A stretch of 21,420 bases of DNA, taken from positions 1 to 21,420 of the IMG/VR virus record IMGVR_UViG_3300045777_000017. One strand, 5' to 3'. The notes below the pieces were generated by a model. It was not told the DNA's origin, searched no databases, and saw nothing but the letters and a program-made list of their open reading frames with translations. Of the stretch, positions 4,050 through 16,758 are shown piece after piece. The position numbers and the translations under genes are program-made. Source of the DNA: a virus. The stretch's first letter is position 1. The number at the start of each line of letters is the position of its first letter.

Positions 4050-4120
4050 GGTAGGTCTCCTGGGCACGGGGGGAGTGGCTGATGCCGCGCCCCGCGCGGA
4101 CAGACCTAATCATTGACAGG

Positions 4121-4175
4121 AATGTTAAGGTTAATAGCAATAAAAGTCAAGAAAAGTAGCAGACCGTCCCAGAAT
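4121..4175 (-). promoter_or_regulatory. Promoter repeat A, upstream of the tail tube gene
   Basis: This 55-bp block matches 12219-12273 at 54 of 55 positions. Reading minus, the -35 is TTGACT (4150-4145), then a 17-nt spacer and the -10 TAACAT (4127-4122), which predicts a start near 4115 and a leader of about 66 nt. Upstream of the -35 lies a block also shared with the repeats near 6.63 and 16.73 kb. Confidence 0.8.
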
Positions 4176-5104: not shown

Positions 5105-5463
5105 GCCATTTCAACTCCGACGCGGAGGCAAACCTCCATCGGGTCACAGTCCACGCTCTTGACTTTGTATAGCGTGCCCAGAATTACAACCTCGTCCTGC
5201 GTCAGCGGACGGCGCGGCAGCAGGCCTTCCTCGAAGGTCAGCACGTAGTCGGTCGTGATGATCGAGCCAGCTTTGGTCTCCTGGGTCGCGCCTTTATCGG
5301 TGAAGCAATCGAAGGTGATCTCGACATCCGGCTCCGTGGCAGTCCCAGACACAGGGTCATAAGCTACGGAATCATAAAGGCGAAAGGTGACCGTCTCGGT
5401 GCCTGGTTTACCAAGGCGGCGCATCTTTTGCATCTGCGCGCGCCCGAGAGCTTGGATGCCCAT
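5101..5463 (-). CDS. Head closure (stopper) protein
   Basis: The 120-residue protein is beta-rich: ETVTFRLYDSVAYDPVSGTATE, then VEITFDCFTDKG, SIITTDYVLTFEEGLL, LTQDEVVILGTLYKVKSVDCDP and VCLRVGVEMA. Its length, its beta-barrel-like pattern and its position between the connector and the gp10-like gene fit a stopper protein that closes the portal channel after DNA packaging. Its ATG overlaps the connector stop as TAATG and its stop overlaps the next start as ATGA. No signal or membrane segment is present. Assigned mostly from order and fold pattern. Confidence 0.68.
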   Translation of the reverse strand: MGIQALGRAQMQKMRRLGKPGTETVTFRLYDSVAYDPVSGTATEPDVEITFDCFTDKGATQETKAGSIITTDYVLTFEEGLLPRRPLTQDEVVILGTLYKVKSVDCDPMEVCLRVGVEMA

Positions 5464-6542
5464 TAGACCCTCACGATCTTTTTCAGGCCCAGCTCATTAC
5501 CAAGCTGCCCGAGCCCGAACAGCACGAATTTTAACCATGGCGGCGCTGGCGACTGGAACCAGCCCTGCTGGTATTCGATCTCAAAGGTGTCGGTGCGGAA
5601 GCGGCGAATGCCGGCTTGATCTTGATCTGCCGCGTTGTCATTGATCAGATAATTCGCGAGCAGCGCCGTGGCGCGAAGCACTTGGAACGGCACCACGTCG
5701 TCTCTCACCTTACGCCGCTCACGGTCGAAGGCACCCTTGCGGGGCCAGCCCAGAGACTGGAGCGGCAGTGGCGGGTTCATCTGCAACACGCGCGGACGAA
5801 CAGGGTCACTCTTGCGGTCTCCGGTCCACACCACCTTGTCGTCGAGCCAGCGCGTCGCCGCTATAATTTGCACCTTCTGCTGCGTCGGCGTCAGGGCGTT
5901 CCAGGCAGTGAGGTCGCGTATCTCCTGGGCCAGGATTGCATTAGCCTGCGCGAGGCTCACGTAAGCGTTTGCGCCGAGGACGCGCGATCCATCCTCGACG
6001 AACAAAGCGAGCCCTACGACGCTCCCTGTGAAGGCTTGATTGACCAGCGTCGCGCCAGTAGAATCATTGACCTGGACAGTGAAGGAAAAATTTCCAGGCG
6101 AGGATGGCGTGCCAGACAGTTCGGCGGTCGCTGAATTCAGAGCGATGCCGTCAGGCAACATGCCGGCGGTGATCGTCGAAACGTAGGGTCGATGAATGAA
6201 CCAAGGCATTGGCGGCGTCGGGCCGAGCAGATTGATCGGCACCATTGGCTCGCCAGCTTCAAGCACGCCGAGCGTGGCGCTTGCCGGCGTGACGACGCCA
6301 ACGTATTCCTGCGTGGCGCTCGCCGAGGCGCTATCGGTGACCGTAACCGTGAAGTCATAGGCCTGTGCTTCGCCAGCGACACCGAAAAGGATTCCAAGGA
6401 CAGGGTCCAGCGTAAGTCCTGCGGGAAGCCAGCCGGTGGTTACCAAAAAGGCATAAGGCGGCGTCCCACCAGACGCCAAGGTCGCGGACACCGGCGCGCC
6501 GACCGTCATTGCTGGCAACGAAGAGATCAAAGCGAGCGTCAT
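5463..6542 (-). CDS. Head-tail connector (DnaT-like/gp6-like) with two N-terminal Ig-like putative adhesion domains
   Basis: The product has 359 residues in two parts. Residues 1-175 hold two repeats of the He_PIG/putative Ig type: LPAGLTLDPVLGILFGV and YDFTVTVTDSAS in the first, LPDGIALNSATAELSGTP and FSFTVQVNDSTG in the second. Residues about 180-359 begin VEDGSRVLGANAYVSLAQAN, continue WNALTPTQQKVQIIAATRWLDD and SLGWPRKGAFDRER, and resemble phage proteins annotated as DnaT-like or gp6-like head-tail connectors. The connector ring would attach to the portal and the Ig-like domains would project outward. The start is ATG with GGGGA four bases upstream. It leads the neck operon and overlaps the stopper gene. 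A fusion of this kind is uncommon for a connector. Confidence 0.75.
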   Translation of the reverse strand: MTLALISSLPAMTVGAPVSATLASGGTPPYAFLVTTGWLPAGLTLDPVLGILFGVAGEAQAYDFTVTVTDSASASATQEYVGVVTPASATLGVLEAGEPMVPINLLGPTPPMPWFIHRPYVSTITAGMLPDGIALNSATAELSGTPSSPGNFSFTVQVNDSTGATLVNQAFTGSVVGLALFVEDGSRVLGANAYVSLAQANAILAQEIRDLTAWNALTPTQQKVQIIAATRWLDDKVVWTGDRKSDPVRPRVLQMNPPLPLQSLGWPRKGAFDRERRKVRDDVVPFQVLRATALLANYLINDNAADQDQAGIRRFRTDTFEIEYQQGWFQSPAPPWLKFVLFGLGQLGNELGLKKIVRV

Positions 6543-6607: not shown

Positions 6608-6658
6608 ACGCTATCTTAATTAACCACGAATGTCAAGAAAGATAGCAATTTGGCTCAC
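6608..6658 (-). promoter_or_regulatory. Promoter repeat D, upstream of the neck operon
   Basis: Minus strand TTGACA (6636-6631) is preceded by GCTATCTTTC and further upstream by GTGAGCC, matching the 30-nt block of repeat C at 22 of 30 positions without gaps. The -10 is poor (TAGCGT at 17-nt spacing, or an alternative one base away), so activation may be needed. The upstream end overlaps the phoH stop codon. Confidence 0.62.
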
Positions 6659-7401
6659 GACAAGCCAGCGTCTTTTCGGTAGGCGGACACCCATTCAGAA
6701 ACCACCTTCGAGCGCACCACGTCTGCCGCGTCGAACTCGATTACATCGGCATCGAGATCGTGGCGATCAACCATGTCAATATGCCGCTGCAACCCGCTCT
6801 CGGACGCATCCATGTCGAGCTGCATCACGTCGCCAGCGATGACGACATTGGAGCCGTCGCCGGTGCGGGTGACCAGAAGTTTGAGGTCAGAAAATGTGCA
6901 GTTTTGCCCTTCATCTAGCAGAACGAAACTCTTATGGAAGGTGCGCCCACGCATGAACTCGAAGGGAACGATTTCAATCGTTCCATCCTGCATGAACTTC
7001 TCGATCTGGTTGTTGGAAATCTCGTCTTTGAACCCGTCAAGGATTGGCACCAGCCAAGGCTTTTGCTTGGCACCCATGCCACCGGGGAGGAACCCATTAC
7101 GGTGCCTCGCCGGGGCAACAGTGGGGCGGGTGATGATAACCTTCTCAATCTCGGACACGGGATTGATCAGTTTTTGGATAGCAAGGCGCGAGGGAATATA
7201 GGTCTTGCCGGTGCCTTCGGGACCAATGGCGAATACAACAGGGTGGAAGTCAATCGCCTCAATCAGCAAGCGCTGATTTTCATTCCGAGGTTCAAGCACT
7301 GTTTTTGCTGTCGCTTCACTTCTCTTTTGAGCTTTACGCTCACGGCGTCTGCGTGCTTTTTCGGAAAGCAAAGACGTAGGATCGAAGACTTCGGTGTCCA
7401 T
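6655..7401 (-). CDS. PhoH-like ATPase
   Basis: The 248-residue protein starts with a basic region (KARRRRERKAQKR). The P-loop is GPEGTGKT at residues 60-67, the Walker B motif is FVLLDEGQN at 159-167, and the second half has VVIAGDVMQLDMDASESGL (186-204), the form of the PhoH ATPase core. The segment ITRPTVAPARHRNGFLPGGMGAKQKPW is the family's conserved stretch between the Walker motifs. PhoH-family proteins bind ATP and are linked to RNA metabolism; their purpose in phages is unsettled. The ATG directly follows the stop of the 74-residue gene (TAAATG), with AAGGGA upstream. It is unusual to find it inside a virion gene block, and the gene ends just before promoter repeat D. Confidence 0.93.
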   Translation of the reverse strand: MDTEVFDPTSLLSEKARRRRERKAQKRSEATAKTVLEPRNENQRLLIEAIDFHPVVFAIGPEGTGKTYIPSRLAIQKLINPVSEIEKVIITRPTVAPARHRNGFLPGGMGAKQKPWLVPILDGFKDEISNNQIEKFMQDGTIEIVPFEFMRGRTFHKSFVLLDEGQNCTFSDLKLLVTRTGDGSNVVIAGDVMQLDMDASESGLQRHIDMVDRHDLDADVIEFDAADVVRSKVVSEWVSAYRKDAGLS

Positions 7402-7626
7402 TTAGATTCCCTTAATGTGATCCTCCAATACGTCAATGGAGTCCACGATTGTGTTGAGGGTCGTGAGTGTTTCGTCAATGGTGACGAGCAATTGCTCACG
7501 GCTGGTGTGAGATTTGCCAAGAAGATTCGATAGACCCTCCAACGCTGGAATCTGGGAGACCAGAATTTCTTCGGCCTTTTCTATGGCCTCGGCCTCGTTA
7601 CCAACCATAATATCCTGACTCGTCAT
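7402..7626 (-). CDS. Small helical protein, unknown
   Basis: The 74-residue acidic protein (MTSQDIMVGNEAEAIEKAEE and onward) is predicted to be almost wholly helical, with Leu/Ile heptads in ILVSQIPALEGLSNLL and LLVTIDETLTTLNTIVDSID. A good site (AGGA) precedes the ATG, which overlaps the stop of the small upstream frame as ATGA. It is directly followed by phoH with no gap, so the two products are probably made together and may interact. I do not recognise a family. Confidence 0.72.
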   Translation of the reverse strand: MTSQDIMVGNEAEAIEKAEEILVSQIPALEGLSNLLGKSHTSREQLLVTIDETLTTLNTIVDSIDVLEDHIKGI

Positions 7627-7751
7627 TTTTTCCTACCTTCTTCCCAAAGTGTCCCGGAATCGAAGAAACTTGTCACACCGGATGGGAGCAGAAAACACGA
7701 TACCAAGGGGAGCGCAAGGGGTAATTTGCAGATATGGTTAAGATGCGACAT
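7623..7751 (-). CDS. Possible small lipoprotein (42 residues)
   Basis: This short frame fills an otherwise empty 136-nt gap. It starts MSHLNHICKLPLALPLVSC. A hydrophobic stretch ends in LVSC, which fits a lipobox with Cys at residue 19, and only about 23 residues follow (ending GTLWEEGRKK). It starts 11 nt after the stop of a membrane-anchored protein and ends in an ATGA overlap with the next gene. The ribosome binding site is weak (GTGG). A small outer-membrane lipoprotein next to a membrane-anchored partner would suit a spanin pair, but this is inference. It may also be a chance frame. Confidence 0.42.
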   Translation of the reverse strand: MSHLNHICKLPLALPLVSCFLLPSGVTSFFDSGTLWEEGRKK

Positions 7752-7762
7752 TTTTGCCACAG

Positions 7763-8239
7763 TCACAAAGTCACAGGATTGGTGTAGGCCCGCGTCTGCC
7801 CCAGAAAAGGGCGTGTGCAAGGGAACATAAAGCGAAAGTCTCTCAGATCGGCGAGCAACCCTTTTGTCACCGCAATGTGGATGGTCGGGAAGAAAAACTC
7901 CGCGCCTACCGCCAATGCGTGCTTGACGAGCAGCGGATCGTTTCCGGGCGGAACTTCGACACTCAGGAGAACCGGCGTGGATCGCAGGTCTTTAAGGTAA
8001 CTTCCTGAAAGATATACGGTTCCGTCAGCGGCGCAGTCATGGTCTTTCCGGAAGGCGACGTCCTTGAGCGTGATCCCTGTATCATCTTCTGATAGTTTGC
8101 CAATTTTCACGACAGTGTAGGATGGGAAGTATCGCTCATAGGTGAAGGAGAACTGAGTCGAGAACCAGACGTAGATGAAAGGCATCCCAAGCATAGCGAA
8201 GAACATCGAGAGTATCCGGCGCTGACTGGCGTTGGTCAT
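7763..8239 (-). CDS. Membrane-anchored protein, unknown
   Basis: The product has 158 residues. An N-terminal hydrophobic helix (ILSMFFAMLGMPFIYVWFS, residues about 9-27) looks like a signal anchor. It is followed by a soluble, beta-rich domain with GTVYLSGSYLKDL (residues about 73-85) and two Cys (HDC and FPC) that could form a disulfide outside the inner membrane. It starts in an ATGA overlap with the preceding membrane/coiled-coil gene, so the pair is coupled. The context of two membrane genes plus a possible lipoprotein suggests envelope work such as lysis or superinfection exclusion. I do not recognise a family, and there is no direct evidence for a holin. Confidence 0.75.
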   Translation of the reverse strand: MTNASQRRILSMFFAMLGMPFIYVWFSTQFSFTYERYFPSYTVVKIGKLSEDDTGITLKDVAFRKDHDCAADGTVYLSGSYLKDLRSTPVLLSVEVPPGNDPLLVKHALAVGAEFFFPTIHIAVTKGLLADLRDFRFMFPCTRPFLGQTRAYTNPVTL

Positions 8240-8625
8240 CTGCGTTTCTCTATTTGCGCCTGGATGCGCTCGAAGCCGACGCGGAGATTGACGACGTCGT
8301 TTGACATACCGTCGACTTTTACCCGAAGCGAATCCACTTCGGTCTTGTTGGTGTCGATCTGGTATTGCTTTAGCTTCTCCGAAGCGATCAGGGTTGAAGC
8401 CTGGGCACCAATTGCCTCAAGCTTGGCGATGCGTTCGCCATGCGCGTCGTATTCATCGATCTTATTGACCGTGAACTTGACCGCTCCAAAAAGGGTCATT
8501 CCGATGGTCATGGCGACACCGAGGTTTTTCCAGCCTTCGGTGTGTTCAAGCCATGACCATGGAGATTTCTTCTCGTCGGTGACTGCTCCCCGCCCTGAAG
8601 TCTGGGGCTTCCCAGATTCAGGCAT
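8236..8625 (-). CDS. Membrane protein with coiled coil; N-terminus remodelled by the tnpB insertion
   Basis: The 129-residue frame has a transmembrane helix (LGVAMTIGMTLFGAVKFTV, near residues 34-52) followed by a long coiled coil (GERIAKLEAIGAQASTLIASE; VDSLRVKVDGMSNDVVNLRVGFERIQAQIEKRR). This resembles small phage membrane proteins near lysis genes. The present ATG at 8625 lies inside the last codons of tnpB, with AGGAGG five bases upstream. The first 15 or so residues (MPESGKPQTSGRGAV) are translated from the insertion's right-end hairpin. The original start was probably the ATGATGACCGAT now stranded on the other side of tnpB, at 9733-9722. Without the insertion the protein would read about M(M)TDEKKSPWSW. 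Confidence 0.75.
   Translation of the reverse strand: MPESGKPQTSGRGAVTDEKKSPWSWLEHTEGWKNLGVAMTIGMTLFGAVKFTVNKIDEYDAHGERIAKLEAIGAQASTLIASEKLKQYQIDTNKTEVDSLRVKVDGMSNDVVNLRVGFERIQAQIEKRR
8587..8610 (-). repeat. Right-end hairpin of the tnpB element (probable omega RNA scaffold end)
   Basis: This is the second copy of the 24-nt block, just after the tnpB stop. In the family the right end is transcribed as the 3' part of the guide RNA and the sequence beyond it acts as guide. Here it is also translated as the N-terminus of the downstream gene. Confidence 0.65.
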
Positions 8626-9661
8626 GGGTTCCTCCTAGCGTTGCCAGTCCGCAACGGAGAATATTGAGCGCGGCGTTTTGGTCCCGGTCGTGTTCGGTTC
8701 CGCAGTCGCTACAGACCCAATCTCTCTTATTCAAATCGGCTCTACCTTTCGGACTACTGACGGGGTTACACCCGCAGCTCGAACAGATTTGAGTTGTATA
8801 TCGCTCTGAAACCTCAATCGCGCTCCCACCATTCCTGATGGACTTGTATGAAAGCATCCGCTTGAAGTCCGACCAGCCCGCATCGAGCGAACTCTTTGCG
8901 AAGCGTGTCTGAGCAATCTTCTTCGGGCTCACGTCGCCGATGACGATAAACCCAAACTCTTTGGTGATCTTCGCCGAAGTCTTATGCAAATGATCCTTGC
9001 GACGATTGGCGACCTTTGCGTGGATCGCGCGAACGCGCTTCGTCTTTCGAGCGCGCTGGACCGTGCCGAGTTTCGTTTCGCTGGCACGATAGAAGCGCGG
9101 CGCTTCGATCTTTTCGCCGGTTGAAAGCGCCGCCAGCGTATGCAGACCAAGGTCGATCCCGACGCGGGCGACGGGCGCACTTACCGCGCACTCGACTTCA
9201 ACCGGGATATTCAGATACCAGCGACCTTTCGCGTCGGCGTTGAATGACCCTGCGCCAATCTTGACGCCCACCTTCAATTCCTCGCGAAGGTGCATGGTCC
9301 GATAGGTGACGCCGCGAAATTTGAAATTCACGCCGTCGAAAGTGACGTGGCCCGTATTGAAGGGAACCCAGCCAAGCGACTTCTTGCCGCGCCAGCGCAG
9401 CCACGCCTTCTTGTTCGTGCGGCGCGAATCAACATAGAAGTCGCACACCCGTTTGATCGTATGGGCGTGGATATTCAATTCTTTTGACGCGCCCGCTGTA
9501 AGTTTTTGCAGGTCGAATGAAGAAAGCCATTTGCGGTGCGCCCGAGCTGCCTTTTGTTGAGTCTCATTGCAATAATTCCAAACAAAATTAACGGCGCGCG
9601 CCTGCCGATTGAGATCGGACACGTGCTTGTCGCGAAGTCTGAATTTATAAACAAGGCGCAT
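8618..9661 (-). CDS. tnpB: TnpB-like RNA-guided nuclease (IS200/IS605 family) with altered RuvC-II
   Basis: The 347-residue product starts at ATG 9661 with AGAGGAACAAA in front. It has the N-terminal helix-turn region (YKFRLRDKHVSDLNRQ), RuvC-I GIDLGLHTLAALS with D170, a basic bridge (RARKTKRVRAIHAKVANRR), a zinc finger C293-x2-C296...C317-x2-C320, and RuvC-III HDRDQNAALNIL (D325/D327). Where most family members have the catalytic Glu (EDL), this one reads IVIGDVSPKK, so Gly242 takes that place. The frame is also open upstream to ATGATG at 9733-9728, which would add 24 residues. No tnpA is present, so it is a non-autonomous or stationary element. Family members cut DNA guided by an RNA made from the element's right end; activity here is uncertain. 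Confidence 0.9.
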   Translation of the reverse strand: MRLVYKFRLRDKHVSDLNRQARAVNFVWNYCNETQQKAARAHRKWLSSFDLQKLTAGASKELNIHAHTIKRVCDFYVDSRRTNKKAWLRWRGKKSLGWVPFNTGHVTFDGVNFKFRGVTYRTMHLREELKVGVKIGAGSFNADAKGRWYLNIPVEVECAVSAPVARVGIDLGLHTLAALSTGEKIEAPRFYRASETKLGTVQRARKTKRVRAIHAKVANRRKDHLHKTSAKITKEFGFIVIGDVSPKKIAQTRFAKSSLDAGWSDFKRMLSYKSIRNGGSAIEVSERYTTQICSSCGCNPVSSPKGRADLNKRDWVCSDCGTEHDRDQNAALNILRCGLATLGGTHA

Positions 9662-9683
9662 TTTGTTCCTCTGGTGCTCGCTA

Positions 9684-9707
9684 TCCCCGCCCTGAAGGAC
9701 GGGGCTT
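9684..9707 (-). repeat. Left-end hairpin of the tnpB element
   Basis: The 24-nt block (minus: AAGCCCC, three bases, CTTCAGGGCGGGGA) matches 8587-8610 except at the three variable bases. It can fold as GCCCCGTCC/GGGCGGGG. Such imperfect hairpins form the ends of IS200/IS605 elements. Confidence 0.7.
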
Positions 9708-9738
9708 GCGCTCGCAAAATTATCGGTCATCATGGGCC

Positions 9739-10005
9739 TTAGTTGTGACGCACGTCCCCGTGAGGCTGCGGCAAATAAACCTCAGCCTTTGGCGCGATGT
9801 CCGGAGCCACATCAAGGGCAAGCGTATGTTGCATGACAGGGGCCTCTGCGACCGGCGCGGGCGCAGCAACAGGGGCGGGAGCTGGAGCCGGCGCTGCCAC
9901 TGGATGTTTCGACCATCCATGGTTGAGGACCAGCTGAGACGCACGCTCATGAGCGATTTCGAACATGAGACCTTTCGGGTCATAAACTCTGACGTAGTCG
10001 GTCAT
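9739..10005 (-). CDS. Small Ala/Pro-rich protein, unknown
   Basis: The 88-residue product starts at ATG 10005 (MTDYVRVYDPKGLMFEIAHE), with AGGAG nine bases upstream. An ATG at 10014 is too close to that site. The N-terminal 36 residues form a compact VRVYDPKG...A..LVLNHGW unit of a kind common in small phage head-region proteins. It is followed by an extended (AP)n-like linker (VAAPAPAPAPVAAPAPVAEAP) and a short C-terminal tail. It lies 28 nt after the 195-residue gene and was probably the direct neighbour of the membrane/coiled-coil gene before tnpB arrived. The function is unknown; a virion-associated role is a guess from position. Confidence 0.72.
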   Translation of the reverse strand: MTDYVRVYDPKGLMFEIAHERASQLVLNHGWSKHPVAAPAPAPAPVAAPAPVAEAPVMQHTLALDVAPDIAPKAEVYLPQPHGDVRHN

Positions 10006-10033
10006 GGCGTGCATCTCCTGGTTGATTAGAGAA

Positions 10034-10621
10034 TTACTCCCGGACGGAAGCATCCTCGACGAGTGAGGCAATGGAGCCAACCACCTGAGCGAGGCTGGTC
10101 TCCGGAGTGAACTTAATGCCTGCGGTGAGCGCCGCAAGTTCGAAAGCGCGGCGGCGGCGGGCGTCAACAGCAACATCGTTATTGGCATCGTCAGACGCAA
10201 CAGAACCGTCGAAGTCACCGCTCGCAGCCAGGCGTGCGTCAAGCGCGCCTTCAATCTCGGCGACTAAACGCTTCTCACTGGAGCGCCCATCGATGTTGGG
10301 GATTTTCAGATACTGCGCAGCCTTGCGCAGGATGTCCTTACTAATCACCGAAAGGTCTTCCGGGACGAAGGGCTCCGGGGGCGTCGGAGGCTGGGTGGTC
10401 TCTGTGCTCTTCGTAGAAGAGCCGTCGTTGACGAACACGACCGGCTCTACGGTTGCGCCGCCGCGCCGCTTCTCGGCCTCGCGCGGATCAAGCGTCCAGC
10501 GGGCGTGGCGGACCAACTCGCGGGCATTGGTGAAAGTGTGAGTGTGTGGAGCGCCAGCAGTATCCCAAACAGTGGTCTGGTTATGGCGGTTGTCAGAAGC
10601 CGGGGCGTATTTGATTCCCAT
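10034..10621 (-). CDS. Unknown protein, possibly head-associated
   Basis: The 195-residue product begins MGIKYAPASDNRHNQTTVWD and has a TF-rich N-terminal part (HTHTFTNARELVRHARW) and a disordered Thr/Pro/Ser stretch (residues about 66-84). A helix-loop-helix segment SVISKDILRKAAQYLKIPNI (residues 91-110), followed by RLVAEIEGALDAR, resembles HeH/LEM or SAP-like nucleic-acid-binding units. The C-terminal third is Ala/Asp-rich and helical. It is the first gene after the capsid-unit terminator and has only a weak ribosome binding site (GAGA). No promoter was seen in front of it, so it may depend on readthrough. Confidence 0.72.
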   Translation of the reverse strand: MGIKYAPASDNRHNQTTVWDTAGAPHTHTFTNARELVRHARWTLDPREAEKRRGGATVEPVVFVNDGSSTKSTETTQPPTPPEPFVPEDLSVISKDILRKAAQYLKIPNIDGRSSEKRLVAEIEGALDARLAASGDFDGSVASDDANNDVAVDARRRRAFELAALTAGIKFTPETSLAQVVGSIASLVEDASVRE

Positions 10622-10645
10622 GATGCATTCTCGGGCTGTTGGAGT

Positions 10646-10687
10646 TACAAAAAGAAAAAGGGCAGGCGGTTGCGCCCGCCCGCCCTT
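10646..10687 (-). terminator. Rho-independent terminator of the capsid unit
   Basis: On the minus strand the arms AAGGGCGGGCGG and CCGCCTGCCCTT pair over 12 bp with one G-U. They enclose a 6-nt loop and are followed by TTTCTTTTT. It lies 28 nt after the stop of the 145-residue gene. A small GCGC-GAAA-GCGC hairpin sits just before it. Confidence 0.9.
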
Positions 10688-10715
10688 ATTTCATCACAGC
10701 GCTTTCGCGCCGAGA

Positions 10716-11153
10716 TTATTGATCCCAATCGGGAGCCAGATAAATGAAGATGCCAACGGTCGGCGACGTGCCGCCGGTGATGGTCACCTTCGGAGCCCAA
10801 TAGGTCTTGGTCGGATGATCGCGCAGGAGCGCCAGATAATCAACCGGAATTTCGAACCATTCACCGCTCACGACCGGGACCGAATCAGCGAGAACCGGGT
10901 TGGTCAGGTTGACATCGTCGTAGACCCAAGTGTCGACGGTGAGGCCGGTGGGCGAACCGGAGACGGACTCAATCTCGCCAACGACGAAGATCGTGCCGTT
11001 CACGGGGTCGCCAGGGTTCTGCCAGAAAGCGCCAGTCTGGGCGAGCTTCTGGATGGCAAACGTGGTGGAGGCGGAGAGGGTCGCCTGGGCCTGCGCACGC
11101 AGGATCAGAGAACCATCGATGGGAAAGCGGCTACGGCCTGTCATGCGACCCAT
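10716..11153 (-). CDS. Candidate capsid decoration protein
   Basis: The 145-residue product starts MGRMTGRSRFPIDGSLILRA, with AAGGA nine bases upstream of the ATG, the same spacing as at the capsid gene. After a helical segment it is mainly beta (GTIFVVGEIESVSG; LTVDTWVYDD; WFEIPVDYLALL; YWAPKVTITGG; VGIFIYLAPDW), with no signal or membrane part. It is the only gene that shares the capsid promoter, and a strong terminator follows it. It should therefore be made in amounts comparable to the capsid protein, which is what is expected of a decoration or cement protein. I do not recognise the family by sequence, so the role is inferred from context. Confidence 0.7.
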   Translation of the reverse strand: MGRMTGRSRFPIDGSLILRAQAQATLSASTTFAIQKLAQTGAFWQNPGDPVNGTIFVVGEIESVSGSPTGLTVDTWVYDDVNLTNPVLADSVPVVSGEWFEIPVDYLALLRDHPTKTYWAPKVTITGGTSPTVGIFIYLAPDWDQ

Positions 11154-11193
11154 GATTGGGTGTCCTTCTATTGGAATTTCGAATGGGGTGAAG

Positions 11194-11218
11194 GAGGGGC
11201 ACGCTAGGCGCGCCCCTC
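11194..11218 (-). other. Hairpin between the capsid and decoration genes
   Basis: GAGGGGCGCG and CGTGCCCCTC pair over 10 bp with one G-U around CCTAG, starting 4 nt after the capsid stop codon. No U tract follows, so it may stabilise mRNA or slow readthrough to adjust the ratio of the two products. Confidence 0.55.
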
Positions 11219-11221
11219 AGA

Positions 11222-12148
11222 TTACTCCGTGACGTCGGCGTTCTGGATGCCCCAGATACGCGCGGCGGCGCGGCCATGCATGACGGCGAGACCGACGAGC
11301 CACTCGACGCGCGTGCGGAACACGGGCTGAGCCTGGAGTTCGCCGAGATCGTTGACCTCGATGGTGCCATTCTGCAGACCCATAACGCGGTTCGTGCCGA
11401 GAGAGACAACGTAGATCGACTGGTTGGTCGTGGCGGAATTGGACGGTCCAATTTCGTTCCAGTCGATGGTGCGCTGACCAAGCTCATTGTAATCCTGGAT
11501 CACGATGGGCAGATCGTTGTAGCTCGCAACCTGGCGGCCCCAATTGTCGGTCGTATACTGGATGTCACCACCGACGTTACCGCGCGCGGCCTTCGTCAGC
11601 TTGCGGCGCAGGGCCTTGGACATAACCAGCGCGGTGGGATTGTCCACGAGGTCGATGGCGGCGTCGAGCACTTCGAGCGACAGAGGGCCATCGGCAGAAC
11701 CGCCAGCCGCAACGAAGAGCTGCGAACCGCCGATGCGGACCTTGAGGCCGTCAAACTCACGCGGGTTGGCCTGCGTGTCGCCGTTGATCAGGCGGTCGCT
11801 GATATGCATCGCGAGGGCCTTGACCTTGGAGGTCTCTTCCGTCGCGCGGATGCCGTAGCCGCGAGTCTTGATCAGCGCCTTATCGACGTCGAGATCGCCA
11901 CCAGCGATATAGAGACGCTCGGTCTCCGGGTTGATGATGCCAGTCGACTCGCTGTAAGCTTCGTTGAAGCCACGGAACGAAACGCCAGGCAGCTGACCTT
12001 CGAGGTTGTAGGTGAGCGAGCCACCGGGAATGTCTTCGAACGGCATGACGTTGAGAAGCTGCGCCGTCATGGCGAACATCTCGATAACGCCAGCGCGCTT
12101 TGTGTCCGCCGAATTACGCTTGGCGGCTTCGATGAGTGTCATCGGCAT
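11222..12148 (-). CDS. Major capsid protein (HK97-type fold expected)
   Basis: The product has 308 residues from ATG 12148 (MPMTLIEAAKRNSADTKRAG), with AAGGA nine bases upstream. The open frame extends to 12208, but that region is the mRNA leader. Recognisable family segments are IEMFAMTAQLLNVMPFEDIPGGSLTYN (residues about 22-48), LPGVSFRGFNEAYSESTGIINP, YIAGGDLDVDKALIKTRG, REFDGLKVRIGGSQLF and NPTALVMSKALRRKLTKAAR, as in phage coat proteins that assemble the head without an N-terminal prohead protease domain. A separate scaffolding gene lies upstream. It is the first gene behind promoter repeat B and is followed by the decoration candidate. Confidence 0.9.
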   Translation of the reverse strand: MPMTLIEAAKRNSADTKRAGVIEMFAMTAQLLNVMPFEDIPGGSLTYNLEGQLPGVSFRGFNEAYSESTGIINPETERLYIAGGDLDVDKALIKTRGYGIRATEETSKVKALAMHISDRLINGDTQANPREFDGLKVRIGGSQLFVAAGGSADGPLSLEVLDAAIDLVDNPTALVMSKALRRKLTKAARGNVGGDIQYTTDNWGRQVASYNDLPIVIQDYNELGQRTIDWNEIGPSNSATTNQSIYVVSLGTNRVMGLQNGTIEVNDLGELQAQPVFRTRVEWLVGLAVMHGRAAARIWGIQNADVTE

Positions 12149-12218
12149 GGGAGGGGTTCCTTCTGTTGAGCCGACCTTTCGGAAGGTTCGAGCCCCGCCC
12201 GTAACCATCGATTACGCA

Positions 12219-12273
12219 AATGTTAAGGTTAATAGCAAAAAAAGTCAAGAAAAGTAGCAGACCGTCCCAGAAT
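12219..12273 (-). promoter_or_regulatory. Promoter repeat B, upstream of the capsid gene
   Basis: This is the second copy of the 55-bp block, with a single mismatch to 4121-4175. The -35 TTGACT is at 12248-12243 and the -10 TAACAT at 12225-12220 with 17-nt spacing, predicting a start near 12213 and a leader of about 65 nt, nearly the same as at copy A. The stretch 12274-12372 behind it holds no gene that I can support. Confidence 0.82.
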
Positions 12274-12372
12274 CGATAGGGCATCATTTTGAAATTTCCT
12301 CGCCGCAGGAACGCTAACGCTCCCCAATCATAACCGCCATATTCAACAATTGGCAGGTGAACACATTTAGAT

Positions 12373-12702
12373 TTAGGCTTGGCCGTTGATGACTCTTACG
12401 CCTTTGTCCAGAAGCGAAGGTATGACCTTATCTACAATTCTTTTAGGGAGCCCAAGAGCCTTAGCTATCTGTGTGCTGTCAACTCTAGTTACCCCAAGTG
12501 CCCTAATAGCCTGAATGTGAGAGTAGACCGCGCTCTCAACATCAGCTGAGTTAAACGAATATGCTGAATGCCTCTGCGACGGACCGTTATAAGTATATGT
12601 AACACCACCAGACGGTATTGACGTAGTTATTACGGTAACCTTCGTGGGGGTAAGGCAGCCAATAGTTACATTTGCATCTGTCTTTACAGCCGACCAACTC
12701 AT
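12373..12702 (-). CDS. Unknown protein with a helix-turn-helix-like C-terminus
   Basis: The 109-residue product starts MSWSAVKTDANVTIG, with AAGGA seven bases upstream. The N-terminal half is Thr/Ser/Val-rich and probably beta (TKVTVITTSIPSGGVTYTYNG). The C-terminal half reads SADVESAVYSHIQAIRALGVTRVDSTQIAKALGLPKRIVDKVIPSLLDKGVRV, where IAKALGLPKRIVDKVIPSL has the spacing of a winged-helix recognition unit. The gene is more AT-rich and uses more A/T-ending codons than the capsid or endolysin genes, so it may be a recent arrival. It could bind DNA, but its place in a late operon leaves the target open. No family recognised. Confidence 0.68.
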   Translation of the reverse strand: MSWSAVKTDANVTIGCLTPTKVTVITTSIPSGGVTYTYNGPSQRHSAYSFNSADVESAVYSHIQAIRALGVTRVDSTQIAKALGLPKRIVDKVIPSLLDKGVRVINGQA

Positions 12703-12774
12703 GGCACATTCCTTATCTTGTTAAGCTTCACACCGTAGGTTTTCTCGTAAGTATCTTGATGCACTACCACAGAA

Positions 12775-13125
12775 TCATCTAGCTGAATTTACTGGCGCGA
12801 TGGGGGCCGGAAGTGAAGCCAGCGTTGCGACAGCAACCGCAGAGTCCTGAAAAACATTGGCTTCGCCAACTTTCAGCACTGTCGCGCGTCTGATCGCCAT
12901 CCGCTCCAGCTCCGCAAGCAACGCCGCGTGATCTACTGTGATCGGCGTGACGTTTGGCGGTAATGCAATCCCTGCAAAATTACTGATCGTGTCAGCAGTC
13001 GCTTGAAAGATGTTTACGCCAGCGCCGAGGCTCGTCGGGATGAATGACGGGAGAGCCTGCAGCGTTCGGAGCGTTCCAACCAGTGGCGTATACTGCGCCA
13101 CCAGTGCCGGGTTCGGAGCGGTCAT
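12775..13125 (-). CDS. Unknown small protein, probably virion-associated
   Basis: The 116-residue product starts MTAPNPALVAQYTPLVGTLR, with AAGG seven bases upstream. It is Ala/Leu/Pro/Val-rich, with an amphipathic helix HAALLAELERMAIRRATVLKVGE (residues about 67-89) and a Pro/Ala tail (ASLPAPIAPVNSAR). No Cys, signal peptide or clear transmembrane helix was found. It begins 9 nt after the glycosyltransferase stop, so it belongs to the same operon. Its composition resembles small alphaproteobacterial phage proteins near fibre genes, but I cannot name a family. Confidence 0.68.
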   Translation of the reverse strand: MTAPNPALVAQYTPLVGTLRTLQALPSFIPTSLGAGVNIFQATADTISNFAGIALPPNVTPITVDHAALLAELERMAIRRATVLKVGEANVFQDSAVAVATLASLPAPIAPVNSAR

Positions 13126-13134
13126 GGGCCAGCC

Positions 13135-14091
13135 TTACGTGAGAGTGTTGACGTCTTCCTCGCGCGAGCGGAGGTAGCGGTCGAAATCTAGTTCGAGCTG
13201 CGGCTTATTGCCGGAGAATTCGATCACGCCAAAGCTGTTGCGTTTCAGATCAGAGTGCGGATCGAAGTCGTGCTTGATAAACATATCCCAGCGCCCGAGG
13301 TAGTTGCGATTGCCTTTGCGCCCATGGAACAAATGCTCGATGGTGCCGTGGACAAATCCCAGCTTACCACAAACATGCGTCGCCGCACGCGCTTCCCAGC
13401 GCTTTAGCGCGTCAATGTAGTGCGGGTGGACCGTGGCAGGAACCGATGCATCCACGTTTCCTGTGAACGCGAGAGCCATGTGGTGATCCCCACTTCCCAT
13501 GCCACCAACCTCAAGAAGGCCACCGAGGCGATCAAGCACTTCACGTTTCCACGCCCATGCGAAGCCGCTGTGGGGATAGGCATAAGGACCTCCATTGTTC
13601 TGCCAGAACTTCACCGTGTTGGGGACCACAGGGCCGCCTGCATGGTAGACCGCGCAGAACGACGTGTGGGTCTGAATGTGCTCGTCATGAGGACCAAGAT
13701 CATAAGCCTTGTCCCAAGGCTGCACTACCGGGTAGAGATCGAGCGCACGGATTGTGCTTGTCGCCCACCCTTCCCGGCGGAACTGGATGTCGGCATCAAG
13801 CGTCGCGATATATTGAGCGCTGTGCGGAAGCCGCGCAATGCCAATGTTCATCAGCGATTCTTTATTCCACACCAGCGACACGGCGCGCACGCCAACAAAG
13901 TTCACACGCGGGTTAGCGCCAAGGTCTTCGAGTTCGAAGTTGCGCGAACCATAAGCGCACTCGACCAATGTGATCTCGACGTTTGGTTCACTAAGCCAGT
14001 CGGCGATGGCAAGTCGCGCCGTGCTGACTCGGCTGGCCCAGCCAATAGGGTTGGCGACAACCGTCACCACATGAAGTTTTCTATGAGACAT
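13135..14091 (-). CDS. GT-A type glycosyltransferase
   Basis: The product has 318 residues from ATG 14091 (MSHRKLHVVTVVANPIGWAS), with CAGGA seven bases upstream. The open frame reaches 14139 but would overlap the endolysin end. A Rossmann-like start (HVVTVVANP) is followed by SLVWNKESLMNIGIARLP and the metal-binding DxD in YIATLDADIQF (D99, D101). The acceptor-side segment SGFAWAWKREVLDRLGGLLEVGGMGSGDHH ends in GD-H-H. The C-terminal HGTIEHLFHGRKGNRNYLGRWD is typical of phage and capsule GT2-like enzymes. It should move a sugar from a nucleotide sugar to an unknown acceptor, such as a virion protein, host surface glycan or modified base. It lies 28 nt behind the endolysin gene. Confidence 0.85.
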   Translation of the reverse strand: MSHRKLHVVTVVANPIGWASRVSTARLAIADWLSEPNVEITLVECAYGSRNFELEDLGANPRVNFVGVRAVSLVWNKESLMNIGIARLPHSAQYIATLDADIQFRREGWATSTIRALDLYPVVQPWDKAYDLGPHDEHIQTHTSFCAVYHAGGPVVPNTVKFWQNNGGPYAYPHSGFAWAWKREVLDRLGGLLEVGGMGSGDHHMALAFTGNVDASVPATVHPHYIDALKRWEARAATHVCGKLGFVHGTIEHLFHGRKGNRNYLGRWDMFIKHDFDPHSDLKRNSFGVIEFSGNKPQLELDFDRYLRSREEDVNTLT

Positions 14092-14119
14092 CACATTATC
14101 CTGCTGTCGGGTTGGCAGT

Positions 14120-15388
14120 TCACCGGCCCAGATTGGCACCGGATTGGTGATCGGCGAGGCGCTGTTGGGCCGTTGCGTCGGCGCTCTTATAAGCCTTCCA
14201 GGCGAAATATCCGGCTACACTCAACAGCAGTGCGCCGAGCGGCAGTTGCCAGTGTTGTGCAAGCCAAATCAGGATCGTCGAATTACTCGACACAGCAGAG
14301 CCAACCGATGACGCGGTGTCAGCAGTGGATTTGATCTGGTCGTTGATGTCGGACAGTGAAGCGCCACTTTGGCTCGCAGCCGATCCAACCGAAGCTACTG
14401 CGGCGGTGCCGGCGGCGGCGATCTTAGTGACAGCGCTCTTGGTGTCATCGGTAGCGGCAATCGTAGCCGAGCCGTCCTGGCGCAAATCATCTACCGTCGC
14501 GCTGGCGCGGTCATCTGGCAACACCTTTGCAGGCGTAGTAGCGGCGTCGAGCGCGGCGCGGGTGTCATCATCAAGTAGGCCAGTGGTCTTGAGACCATTG
14601 GCGTCCTGGAAGTCACGGATGCCAGAGCGGGTCAATGGAGCAAGGTCGCCGTCGATCTTGCCTGGGAAGAATTTCAAATCCTTTAGACGCTGTTGCACAC
14701 CGCGCACTTGGGCTTTGGAGAGTTTAGGTTCAATAGAAGTTTCCGAATCAGCGTCTGCCGTTTCGCCGCTGGAGAATTTCACCAGCGCAGCTTTGGCGCG
14801 GCGCAGTGCGCTCTCGCGGTCGGCGAGGCCTTCCTCACCACCATTGACGTGCTTGGTTGAGCCAACAATATCACCACGCTGTCCATAGGGGACCGCGCCA
14901 ACCAAGACGTATGTGGCGCAGACGCATTCGAACATATGATCCGGATCGGTCAGCCAGTCAGCCGCCTCTTCGGCAGTAATGCCAAGTTTCTTCGCGAGCC
15001 GCTCGGTGTTCTCCCGTCCGGTGGTTTCCAAACCACCCTTGCCACGGAAAATCCAGCCGTCTTCGGAGCCGGGACGATTGCCCATGCGTCCGTCGTAGAC
15101 TTTCAGCGCTAGCGCTTTGGGGTTATGGGAATAAGGTTCAGCCTGGGCAAGGGAATGAAAACGTGATGGCCAGACCTTGCAGAGTCGCTGCGCGGAATAG
15201 CTTAGGTCTTCCTCCAGCCGCGTGAAGCCGGCGCTTTCAACCGACGCATGCGCAAGCAGATCAGCCTGCACGTTGCGGCTGGTCAGCTTGTATTTCTCGA
15301 ACATTTCGTCAGCATGATCAGCGATCATCGAGACGATGTCCGCTTTGGCGTGCGGTGAGATTGCCAGAATTACGCGACGCCAATCCAT
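14120..15388 (-). CDS. Endolysin: GH19 domain, peptidoglycan-binding domain and C-terminal membrane helix
   Basis: The 422-residue product starts at ATG 15388 with AAGGA seven bases upstream. Residues 1-205 form a GH19/lysozyme-like domain: ADLLAHASVESAGF carries the probable catalytic Glu51, then LEEDLSYSAQRLCKVWPSRF, VYDGRMGNRPGSEDGW and FRGKGGLETTGRENTERLAKKLG. In many relatives the last motif reads GLIQLTG, so it is altered here. Residues 224-282 are a PG_binding_1 domain (VRGVQQRLKDLKFFPGKIDG, FQDANGLKTTGLLDDDTRAAL). An Ala/Ser/Thr-rich linker leads to a hydrophobic helix LPLGALLLSVAGYFAWKAY (382-400). It should degrade the cell wall at lysis. The C-terminal anchor is unusual for this family. 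Confidence 0.92.
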   Translation of the reverse strand: MDWRRVILAISPHAKADIVSMIADHADEMFEKYKLTSRNVQADLLAHASVESAGFTRLEEDLSYSAQRLCKVWPSRFHSLAQAEPYSHNPKALALKVYDGRMGNRPGSEDGWIFRGKGGLETTGRENTERLAKKLGITAEEAADWLTDPDHMFECVCATYVLVGAVPYGQRGDIVGSTKHVNGGEEGLADRESALRRAKAALVKFSSGETADADSETSIEPKLSKAQVRGVQQRLKDLKFFPGKIDGDLAPLTRSGIRDFQDANGLKTTGLLDDDTRAALDAATTPAKVLPDDRASATVDDLRQDGSATIAATDDTKSAVTKIAAAGTAAVASVGSAASQSGASLSDINDQIKSTADTASSVGSAVSSNSTILIWLAQHWQLPLGALLLSVAGYFAWKAYKSADATAQQRLADHQSGANLGR

Positions 15389-15398
15389 AGCTGAATCC

Positions 15399-15653
15399 TT
15401 AGAGTGTGTAGGTGCCTGGGCCTGTGCCTAGTTTCACATTGACAACCCGAAAGAGATCGTAACCGTCAGGGAAAACCATGCCATTGACGAGCGTCTCGTC
15501 GGTCGGAGAGGCGCTCTTCATGATCACCATCGGATAGACGTCGCCAGCCGCGACAGGAGTTAGTATCTCTGGCCGGCGCTGATTGATGTTGATGGCGTCT
15601 TGTTGAGTGAGTGCGTAACGCGCGATGCGCGCCACATAATCAGCTGCTGACAT
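15399..15653 (-). CDS. Unknown 84-residue protein
   Basis: The product starts at ATG 15653 (MSAADYVARIARYALTQQDA), with GAGG five bases upstream. A longer frame to 15761 runs through the preceding lysine-rich gene and is not used. The N-terminal part is helical. The rest is beta-like, with VYPMVIMKSASP, LVNGMVFPDGYDLFRVVNVKLG and a Gly/Thr-rich end GTGPGTYTL. It begins 7 nt after the stop of the lysine-rich gene and ends 10 nt before the endolysin start. Family not recognised; a small structural protein is possible. Confidence 0.7.
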   Translation of the reverse strand: MSAADYVARIARYALTQQDAININQRRPEILTPVAAGDVYPMVIMKSASPTDETLVNGMVFPDGYDLFRVVNVKLGTGPGTYTL

Positions 15654-15660
15654 CGCGTCC

Positions 15661-15777
15661 TCACTTCTTCTTTTTGGACTTCTTCGCAGGCTTAGCGGGG
15701 GTGCCGACCTTTGGCGCTTTGGTCGGCTTCGCAGCACCCTTGCCGCGTTTCGAGGCTTCAATCGAAGACATGGGCAT
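15661..15777 (-). CDS. Lysine-rich 38-residue basic peptide
   Basis: The product starts MPMSSIEASKRGKGAAKPTK and ends AKPAKKSKKKK. About a third of its residues are Lys, mixed with Ala and Pro as in histone H1 tails. GGAG six bases upstream of ATG 15777 selects this start over the frame's upstream codons. It lies between the scaffold and the 84-residue gene. A basic, disordered peptide could bind DNA or RNA or neutralise charge in the prohead, but nothing in the sequence decides this. Confidence 0.65.
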   Translation of the reverse strand: MPMSSIEASKRGKGAAKPTKAPKVGTPAKPAKKSKKKK

Positions 15778-15833
15778 GCGAATCTCCATCAGGTTAAAAG
15801 ACCGACGACCGCGTAAAGCGGTCGCCGAGCGCA

Positions 15834-16628
15834 TTACATGCCGCGCGGGCGCACGGCTTCGTTGGCGATGCGGATTTTCTCTTCCGGAAGCATCTTGTCG
15901 AACTGCTCCTGTGAGAAGCCGCCGAACTTGCCGGTGTTCTGCTGGCCAGCGCCGGCACCGCCGGTTGAGCTGCGGAACAGATGCGGGCTTTTTTCCTTTA
16001 GCGTCTGAACCCACTCAGAGGGCGACATCGGCGTGGTGCCGTCCTGACCATAGAGCGTGGTGTCGCCGATCTTGGGAATGACGCGCTCACCGTCGTTCTC
16101 AACGACGAACACGTTCTGCGCACGACTGATGATGTCTTCGACTGCGGAGGGAGCGACGCCTGACTTCTCGTCCAGCACTGCGCCAAGCACGGCCTGCTTG
16201 ATCGCCTGCTGACGCAAGCGGGTGTCGAGCATGGCGGCGCGGTCGCGTGCGGCCTTTTCGGAAGTAGTAAGAGCGGCGCGCTGCTCTTCGAACTGCTGCT
16301 TCATCGACTTGGTGCGCTCGATTGTCGCCGCTTCAATGTCGGTGCTGGCGGTGAGCTTGCCGTCCTTGACCTGCTGGAAAGTCGAGCGCAGTTCGTGCAG
16401 CTCGGCGGTGACCTTGCTCGGGTCGAATTCTGGGAAAAGCGTATTGACACTATCAACAGTCGCCTTGAACGCATCGCGCTCTTTGGAGACCTTGATATTG
16501 TTTTCTCTGAATTCCTGGAGCCGCTCGTTAGGAACCAGATTGATAACTACGCCGCCTTCGGCGTCCTTGGCGAATTGGCGAAGCTCTTCGGGAAGAGCTT
16601 CCCGGTTGGGAAACATGATATCAGGCAT
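15834..16628 (-). CDS. Capsid scaffolding protein
   Basis: The product has 264 residues from ATG 16628 (MPDIMFPNREALPEELRQFA), with GGGGTG eight bases upstream. An ATG at 16664 with GGTGGG is a second choice, while longer starts at 16724 and 16733 overlap the promoter. Features are VVINLVPNERLQEFRENNIKVSKERD, a long charged coiled coil (about residues 60-165), a helical region RLRQQAIKQAVLGAVLDE, and a C-terminal Gly/Gln-rich linker (SSTGGAGAGQQNTGKFGG) before a helix FDKMLPEEKIRIANEAV. This layout, with a flexible coiled-coil body and a C-terminal capsid-binding helix, is that of phage scaffolding proteins, which guide capsid assembly and then leave. The gene sits behind promoter repeat C. 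Confidence 0.8.
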   Translation of the reverse strand: MPDIMFPNREALPEELRQFAKDAEGGVVINLVPNERLQEFRENNIKVSKERDAFKATVDSVNTLFPEFDPSKVTAELHELRSTFQQVKDGKLTASTDIEAATIERTKSMKQQFEEQRAALTTSEKAARDRAAMLDTRLRQQAIKQAVLGAVLDEKSGVAPSAVEDIISRAQNVFVVENDGERVIPKIGDTTLYGQDGTTPMSPSEWVQTLKEKSPHLFRSSTGGAGAGQQNTGKFGGFSQEQFDKMLPEEKIRIANEAVRPRGM

Positions 16629-16704
16629 TTGGTTAGCACCCCGTGCTGTTGTGTTTGACGCCATTTTACCCACCGGGTTCGGGAGGGACGTCATTGCGTT
16701 GGGG

Positions 16705-16758
16705 ATTCTGACCGCATTAGCCATGTTTGTCAAGAAAAATAGCCAAACGGCTCAGAAT
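16705..16758 (-). promoter_or_regulatory. Promoter repeat C, upstream of the scaffold gene
   Basis: Reading minus, the -35 is TTGACA (16733-16728), the spacer is 17 nt and the -10 is CAGAAT (16710-16705). The 30 nt ending in TTGAC match copies A/B at 24 positions and copy D at 22, without gaps. The predicted start near 16698 excludes scaffold starts further upstream. Confidence 0.72.

Follow-up and report, generated by a model that had tools for sequence, protein, structure and literature searches.

Putative phage-specific sigma70-type promoters with an outer box and a lineage-variable arm upstream of virion genes

The stretch of viral DNA analysed here, referred to as the window, is 21,420 nt long. 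On its minus strand lie the genes for a scaffold protein, a major capsid protein, a neck/adaptor protein and a major tail protein, each preceded by an ungapped 30-mer ending in TTGAC. These are the scaffold, capsid, neck and tail tube units that the initial annotation had placed behind its four sites, A to D. The features are:

12244..12273, minus strand: site A, 30-mer block 5' of the major capsid gene
12269-12264, 12259-12255 and 12248-12243, minus strand: box TGGGAC, arm TGCTA and -35 TTGACT of site A
12220..12225, minus strand: -10 of site A, TAACAT, 17-bp spacing
12227..12232, minus strand: TTAACC in the site A spacer
11222..12208, minus strand: major capsid gene (phrog_212), 3' of site A; coordinates of the listed ORF, whose true start probably lies inside it
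4146..4175, minus strand: site B, 30-mer identical to A, 5' of the major tail (tube) gene
4171-4166, 4161-4157 and 4150-4145, minus strand: box, arm and -35 of site B
4122..4127, minus strand: -10 of site B, TAACAT
4129..4134, minus strand: TTAACC in the site B spacer
2205..4067, minus strand: major tail (tube) protein gene (phrog_290), 3' of site B
16729..16758, minus strand: site C, 30-mer 5' of the scaffold gene
16754-16749, 16744-16740 and 16733-16728, minus strand: box TGAGCC, arm GGCTA and -35 TTGACA of site C
16705..16710, minus strand: -10 of site C, CAGAAT
15834..16628, minus strand: scaffold gene (phrog_206), 3' of site C, start moved to MPDIMF
6632..6661, minus strand: site D, 30-mer between phoH and the neck/adaptor gene
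6657-6652, 6647-6643 and 6636-6631, minus strand: box TGAGCC (overlapping the phoH stop), arm TGCTA and -35 TTGACA of site D
6608..6613, minus strand: -10-like hexamer of site D, TAGCGT
6620..6625, minus strand: GGTTAA (CtrA-half-site-like) in the site D spacer
5463..6542, minus strand: head-tail adaptor Ad1/neck gene (phrog_477), 3' of site D

The Cp1R7A-A1 gene in the place equivalent to 2205..4067 is annotated as the major tail tube protein. The scaffold start was reassigned to MPDIMF near 16628 because the relatives align from this residue; the listed TTG at 16733 would sit inside the -35. At site D, the TGA of TGAGCC doubles as the stop codon of phoH.

The window contains exactly four copies of TTTCTTGAC, on the minus strand only (4146, 6632, 12244 and 16729), whereas 0.16 copies are expected in shuffled windows. 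Sites A and B are identical over the 30 nt and nearly so over about 55 nt. The identities of C with A/B (24/30) and with D (22/30) are, to the base, those given in the initial annotation, and they exceed the best match to any window 30-mer in 100 Markov shuffles (20-21/30). The identity of D with A/B (19/30) is by itself within the chance level, and D is joined to A/B through C. The letters TG-G-C, GCTA and TTTCTTGAC, earlier listed as fully conserved, recur in the invariant pattern.T..TG.G.C.....GCTA..TTTCTTGAC. All four sites have a -10-like hexamer at 17-bp spacing. As sigma70-type cores, C scores 10/12 and A and B 9/12, and D combines a full -35 with a weak TAGCGT. Judged by their letters, these core elements might be good enough for the promoters to function unaided.

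The block is not confined to the window. A longer 34-kb contig of the same phage carries two additional full sites, one of them 5' of a probable portal gene. An initial low-threshold genome scan gave matches close to the null, and a stricter threshold was then used. It yielded six full sites in the 34-kb contig (null 0.2), all on the coding strand, four (null 0.0) and eight (null 0.1) in two close relatives, seven in Cp1R7A-A1 (null 0.4) and eight in DSS3P8 (null 0.1); the scoring was tuned on these sites, such that the excess over the null in the closest contigs is partly built in. Relatives with the block include the cultured phages Cp1R7A-A1, DSS3P8, MD18 and JY26, and it mostly lies directly 5' of a gene oriented the same way. 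The motif search proposed with the initial annotation found the expected intergenic placement, with hardly any spread into genes and none to the other strand: in the two annotated relatives, 7/7 full sites of Cp1R7A-A1 and 7/8 of DSS3P8 are intergenic, each directly 5' of a same-strand gene or tRNA, and the eighth site of DSS3P8 overlaps the end of a gene. The strict form of the block was found in five stretches of viral contigs versus a single match in 257 Gb of bacterial genomes. Because of this single match the block is regarded as phage-specific, and the bacterial scan rules out a common host promoter motif. The set is wider than the late regulon first proposed: besides the virion operons, it includes ribonucleotide reductase, NadM and Holliday-resolvase operons. 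The structural and lysis genes of phiCbK are expressed in the middle and late stages of infection (PMC10688885).

The near-identity of A and B, and a similar scaffold/tube promoter twin in Cp1R7A-A1, could be explained by duplication of ordinary sigma70 promoters, whose likeness would reflect the shared descent of the copies and require no dedicated regulator. Arguing against this explanation, which is very unlikely, are the exact register of the hexamer and the presence of the same elements within unrelated flanks, 5' of different genes, in phages with little nucleotide identity to one another.

Comparison of the sites divides the block into three elements: an outer box, TGRSCC, near -57 to -52; a lineage-variable arm; and a sigma70-type -35/-10 with 17-bp spacing. 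The arm is TGCTA in the window phage and TGTCA in DSS3P8, lies seven bases 5' of TGAC and often completes a dyad with the -35. The register that the initial annotation described as fixed is so inside the window, where 15 nt separate TGRSCC from TTGAC, but in relatives this distance varies from 14 to 17 nt. To avoid circularity in testing the register, promoter-like sites were picked solely by TTGAC-N16..18-TANNNT; among them, 14 of the 18 TGRSCC occurrences across 41 offsets were at a gap of 14-16, and the arm was at gap 7 in most genomes. A preset check of phage MD18 revealed TGACCC-N16-TTGAC before the scaffold gene and TGACCC-N15-TTGAC before the portal gene. The box is not universal among relatives; it is absent or unclear in the inspected promoters of RXM, EliS-L02 and Lacusarx, and phiCbK mostly lacks it. 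Instead of the single activator site originally suggested, the 30 nt comprise two or more separately evolving elements. Two other assignments were dropped. TGAGCC was considered as an arm of an upstream terminator at the portal site of Cp1R7A-A1, but the stem is missing at the other sites inspected. A TGGYTAAT repeat in the spacer at first resembled another copy of the arm in fixed register, but it lies at a variable distance of 3-6 nt from the -35 and was re-read as CtrA-half-site-like.

Recognition of an extended -35 block by a phage sigma factor or a modified polymerase, the other suggestion of the initial annotation, is highly improbable. In favour of such a factor, the Lacusarx paper lists a phage sigA and its equivalents in DSS3P8 and CcrRogue (PMC5648845). 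Yet Sigma70 region 2 (Sigma70_r2) was not found in any of nine genomes or contigs of relatives, a set that did not include Lacusarx, whereas the same search matched in ten control bacteria. Four Sigma70_r4 matches, in DSS3P8, RXM and JY26, were rejected as resembling generic HTH or GIY-YIG proteins. Moreover, the -35 and -10 elements are standard sigma70-like ones.

Dyads that include the arm are abundant in several relatives. DSS3P8 contains 31 TGTCA-N7-TGACA dyads where its length and base count predict about 0.14, and in Cp1R7A-A1 about 33 sequences match TGTCMAG-N5-CTKGACA-like dyads. In phiCbK, TGTC-N9-GACA peaks at 21, and GAATCTTGAC is present in 18 copies, many of them as TGTCGTGAATCTTGAC(A). 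The arm and -35 of the window phage, TGCTA-N7-TGAC, lack the two-fold symmetry seen in DSS3P8, Cp1R7A-A1 and phiCbK and hence are not a true dyad. HTH_3 proteins are encoded by five relatives (Cp1R7A-A1, DSS3P8, JY26, RXM and Lacusarx), with a significant S24 domain solely in that of JY26; the DSS3P8 protein is gp062. A candidate HTH_3/S24-like regulator was not found in the incomplete genome of the window phage, and no dyad lies directly upstream of the regulator genes in DSS3P8 and Cp1R7A-A1.

In one possible model, tentatively considered, a single late activator covers the whole 30 nt and recruits the host polymerase, without repression. It would account for a TGRSCC box at a distance typical of many upstream activators and conserved while the middle arm changes. 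It fits poorly with a consensus -35 and a fair -10, which differ from those of typical activator-dependent promoters, and with the arm-dyads at many non-late places throughout the DSS3P8 and Cp1R7A-A1 genomes; furthermore, the CcGTA promoter no longer needs its activator when given a consensus -35 (PMC11150451). Of comparable, limited probability is the converse model, in which intrinsically active promoters are silenced early by a CI/LexA-like repressor on the -35 dyad and TGRSCC is an accessory contact. The genome-wide dyads overlapping the -35 in several relatives and the conserved HTH_3/S24-like regulator agree with it, but the conservation and register of TGRSCC are left unexplained and the window phage has only a degenerate dyad. 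What is supported of the first proposal is a phage-specific promoter family under shared control. This control may act by activation or by repression, since the -35 forms the right arm of the dyads found genome-wide in DSS3P8 and Cp1R7A-A1.

A host contribution was suggested by GGTTAA/TTAACC, present in five of six window-phage spacers versus 0.09 expected; the entire contig has only some 14 copies. CtrA has TTAACCAT as its half-site, and half-sites through which it represses overlap the -10 (PMC6180460, PMC3692519). Promoters of phiCbK and Cp1R7A-A1 are bound and regulated by CtrA (PMC9437464). Gating of the promoters by CtrA through the spacer half-sites, alone or atop phage control, is nevertheless doubtful: their position within the spacer varies, they are absent from the G003, Cp1R7A-A1 and DSS3P8 sites, and published phage CtrA sites cluster in terminal repeats. 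The six window-phage promoters contain no full TTAA-N7-TTAA site.

In the model favoured here, with a probability of roughly 55%, the four sites are phage-specific sigma70-type promoters at which the host RNA polymerase initiates while DNA-binding proteins of the phage exert control through box, arm/operator and core. The three elements, their spacing, conservation, position 5' of genes and restriction to phages are observed in the sequences, whereas we infer that proteins bind these elements, which proteins these may be and the sign of their control. An activator at TGRSCC, about 15 nt 5' of the -35, would contact the polymerase from approximately two helical turns upstream. The arm, exactly 7 nt before TGAC, and the -35 together span about 17 bp, which in several relatives make up a true dyad. 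A phage repressor or dual regulator may use this block as its operator; the top candidate would be the HTH_3/S24-like CI/LexA-type protein of the five relatives. The core, with -35 TTGACA, 17-bp spacer and -10, would then drive the virion operons, to which relatives add packaging/recombination and nucleotide operons. An unlikely extension of this scheme is that a clade of large siphoviruses uses one composite promoter for virion, packaging and nucleotide operons, with a constant box and an arm that changes with each lineage's own repressor, and that CtrA half-sites in the window phage add a cell-cycle gate on the virion genes.

Searches of the open literature, and term searches within the genome papers of phiCbK, DSS3P8 and Lacusarx, turned up no account of such promoters, even though phiCbK has long served as a model phage and RNA-seq of its infection has been published. 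These related phages of Alphaproteobacteria appear to turn on a whole gene set through one shared regulator system. The element delimits a regulon, points to a candidate regulator and lends itself to simple mutational tests in phages that are in culture; it also provides a route to asking how these phages schedule virion production and whether cell-cycle factors of the host participate.

The sites resemble sigma70 promoters of Alphaproteobacteria in the TTGAC -35, the 17-bp spacer and a fair -10, and differ from them by the outer box and the regular arm 7 nt before TGAC. Late promoters of the P2 Ogr/Delta class are activator-dependent and have a conserved element centred near -55, TGT-N12-ACA in the Ogr type, that is common to several late operons. 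The box has a similar location across several late operons, but its sequence differs, with no conserved TGT-N12-ACA letters in an alignment of 42 sites, a strong -35 is retained, and no Ogr-like protein was identified. Operators of the lambda CI/LexA type overlap promoters, and mycobacteriophage L5 has scattered stoperators; in relatives of the window phage, too, many 17-19-bp dyads overlap the -35 or -10 and a CI-like protein is encoded, but the phages are described as virulent, the site is a composite with TGRSCC, and the window phage itself has a degenerate dyad. GafY/GafZ-IHF control of the GTA cluster in Caulobacter likewise combines a host sigma70 promoter, a phage-like structural cluster and phage-derived regulators; its own traits are a far-upstream GafY site that needs IHF, a GafZ site in the spacer and a degenerate -35 (PMC11150451). 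CtrA-controlled phage promoters share the phage group (phiCbK, Cp1R7A-A1) and TTAA-type sites; the published sites are mainly in terminal repeats, whereas the half-site-like sequences described here are located in promoters of virion genes (PMC9437464).

The window is part of a large siphovirus whose major capsid protein shares 64% identity with its counterpart in Mesorhizobium phage Cp1R7A-A1 and approximately 52-54% with the counterparts in the phiCbK/DSS3P8 group. An ungapped 30-mer ending in TTGAC, comprising an outer box (TGRSCC), an arm before TGAC and the -35, is present at four sites:

12244-12273, minus strand: site A, upstream of the capsid gene
4146-4175, minus strand: site B, upstream of the tail tube gene
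16729-16758, minus strand: site C, upstream of the scaffold gene
6632-6661, minus strand: site D, upstream of the neck adaptor gene

The four-site observation stands: recomputation gave exactly the 30-mers and the identities listed in the initial annotation, and shuffles of the window never attained 22/30. The invariant letters are.T..TG.G.C.....GCTA..TTTCTTGAC, and TTTCTTGAC occurs four times in the window, only on the minus strand (0.16 in shuffles). In the same window, two neighbouring tail assembly chaperone ORFs (678-1522; phrog_313 and phrog_3817) adjoin, on their upstream side, a 209-aa ORF (1524-2153, minus strand) that by eye is HNH endonuclease-like; adjacent ORFs of this kind are a usual place of a programmed frameshift. 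A 371-aa ORF (8618-9733, minus strand) resembles, also by eye, a TnpB/OrfB-type transposase-associated protein.

A longer contig of the same phage, G001 (IMG/VR contig 3300045776_000069, 34,276 bases), is 99.9% identical to the window across 20.2 kb (G001 = window + 1815, by arithmetic from the aligned ends). It contains the window's four sites and two more:

G001 23892: full-block site, about 650 bases past the window end
G001 30291: full-block site, 72 bases upstream of a 731-residue ORF

Judged on position and size, this ORF is probably the portal gene. Hits on the other strand, named beforehand as evidence against the family, were looked for; the six above-threshold sites of G001 all lie on one strand, compared with 0.2 in Markov shuffles and 0 in the reversed sequence. 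At G001 26879 and 27476 (L076), two near-identical promoter-like sites have a tandem 12-mer, GCTATTTTTCTT, before TTGAC; neither has the outer box.

Scoring sites number 4 and 8 in two contigs with 82%-identical capsid proteins, 7 in the cultured phage Cp1R7A-A1 and 8 in the cultured phage DSS3P8. The -35 is intergenic at 7/7 sites in Cp1R7A-A1, and 7/8 DSS3P8 sites are intergenic, the remaining one lying within the final bases of a small gene. The sites precede:

Cp1R7A-A1: portal; scaffold; tail tube; ribonucleotide reductase gene; crossover-junction nuclease operon; small gene, function unassigned; tRNA-Cys then tail-fibre gene
DSS3P8: portal; scaffold; tube; gp048; DUF2793 gene; NadM; resolvase-like operon; gp019

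In each of the three close relatives (L075, L077, L078), CTTAACATT is found around the -10 of both the capsid and the tube promoter, as if the pair were kept matched.

A strict-block search of the viral collection returned five stretches: the three contigs already under study, a DSS3P8-like contig and G011, a 50-kb contig found by motif alone that comes from the same metagenome source as one relative and carries replication and metabolism genes. In G011 the block lies upstream of ribonucleotide reductase, as in Cp1R7A-A1, and of a Holliday-junction resolvase operon; Cp1R7A-A1 and DSS3P8 likewise have a resolvase-operon promoter. Since the block precedes these operons in relatives, the set is not purely late-structural. 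The predicted intergenic position was borne out at all but one site of Cp1R7A-A1 and DSS3P8, but the restriction to late genes was not. The proposal of one activator site or a modified polymerase controlling a late regulon was of the right kind in positing a shared regulon; its scope was too narrow and activation too specific.

Across bacterial and archaeal genomes totalling 257 Gb the strict block matches once, in a myxobacterium, which by estimate is at or below chance level, so the block is no common promoter motif of hosts. A search for Pfam Sigma70 region 2 gave no match in nine genomes or contigs of phages, of which three are partial, whereas ten control bacteria were positive; outside this set, the Lacusarx genome paper names a sigA gene (PMC5648845).

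The register of the outer box was examined non-circularly at sites chosen in all genomes solely by TTGAC-N16..18-TANNNT, with TGRSCC counted at distances 5-45. It lay at 14-16 in 14/18 occurrences, nine of them at 15, and in 5/8 once the three closest contigs were excluded; the distance is a constant 15 in the window and 14 to 17 in relatives. Most genomes have an arm-to-TGAC gap of 7; the gap is 9 in Cp1R7A-A1 and 8 in Lacusarx. Arm letters follow lineage (window phage, TGCTA; DSS3P8, TGTCA; Cp1R7A-A1, TGTC(A/C)AG; RXM and Lacusarx, GGTTA), and MD18, with an altered arm, retains TGACCC at 15-16 nt, so that outer box and arm evolve separately.

GGTTAA or TTAACC occurs in 5/6 spacers of the window phage (0.09 expected from shuffled spacers; 14 on the whole contig, counted with 1-kb overlap), at 2/4 sites each in G002, a related contig, and G011, and in no spacer of the scored sites of G003, another related contig, Cp1R7A-A1 or DSS3P8. 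The published CtrA half-site is TTAACCAT, and repressing half-sites overlap the -10 (PMC6180460, PMC3692519); CtrA binds and regulates promoters of phiCbK and Cp1R7A-A1 (PMC9437464). By this resemblance the spacer motifs of the window phage are putative CtrA-like half-sites.

We infer regulator binding at the shared promoters, as well as the sign of control and the identity of the regulator. A CI/LexA-like HTH_3 protein is present in Cp1R7A-A1, DSS3P8, JY26, RXM and Lacusarx, with a significant S24 domain in the JY26 copy. By eye, the three phages that carry the outer box have SRSAVGQWE, SRAAVGQWE or SRAAVAQWE as the putative recognition helix, and the two that lack it have SRASMVHYE or SRATIVQYE; helix type would track outer-box presence, a correlation over five sequences.

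EliS-L02 (OL955261.1, L118-L125) has many TTGACGAATCACTTGGAC... repeats near its genome end (~133-150 kb), apparently an early promoter family, and elsewhere a second family, TTGACA..CCGGA.AAATTGTCCTA.

Cp1R7A-A1 (MT188704.1, L080-L086) carries ~33 19-bp dyads like TGTCMAG-N5-CTKGACA genome-wide, and TGTC-N9-GACA peaks at 21 in phiCbK and 6 in G011. At block-bearing promoters the right arm of the dyad is the -35; in the repeated promoters towards the end of the DSS3P8 genome, it seems by eye that the dyad overlaps the -10. Such overlap with promoter elements is consistent with a phage repressor or dual regulator. DSS3P8 (KT870145.1, L087-L094) has the 17-bp dyad TGTCA-N7-TGACA at 31 places (~0.14 expected from length and base count); four of these copies, near-identical and promoter-like, lie close to the genome ends, and this genome-wide distribution resembles that of scattered phage operators.
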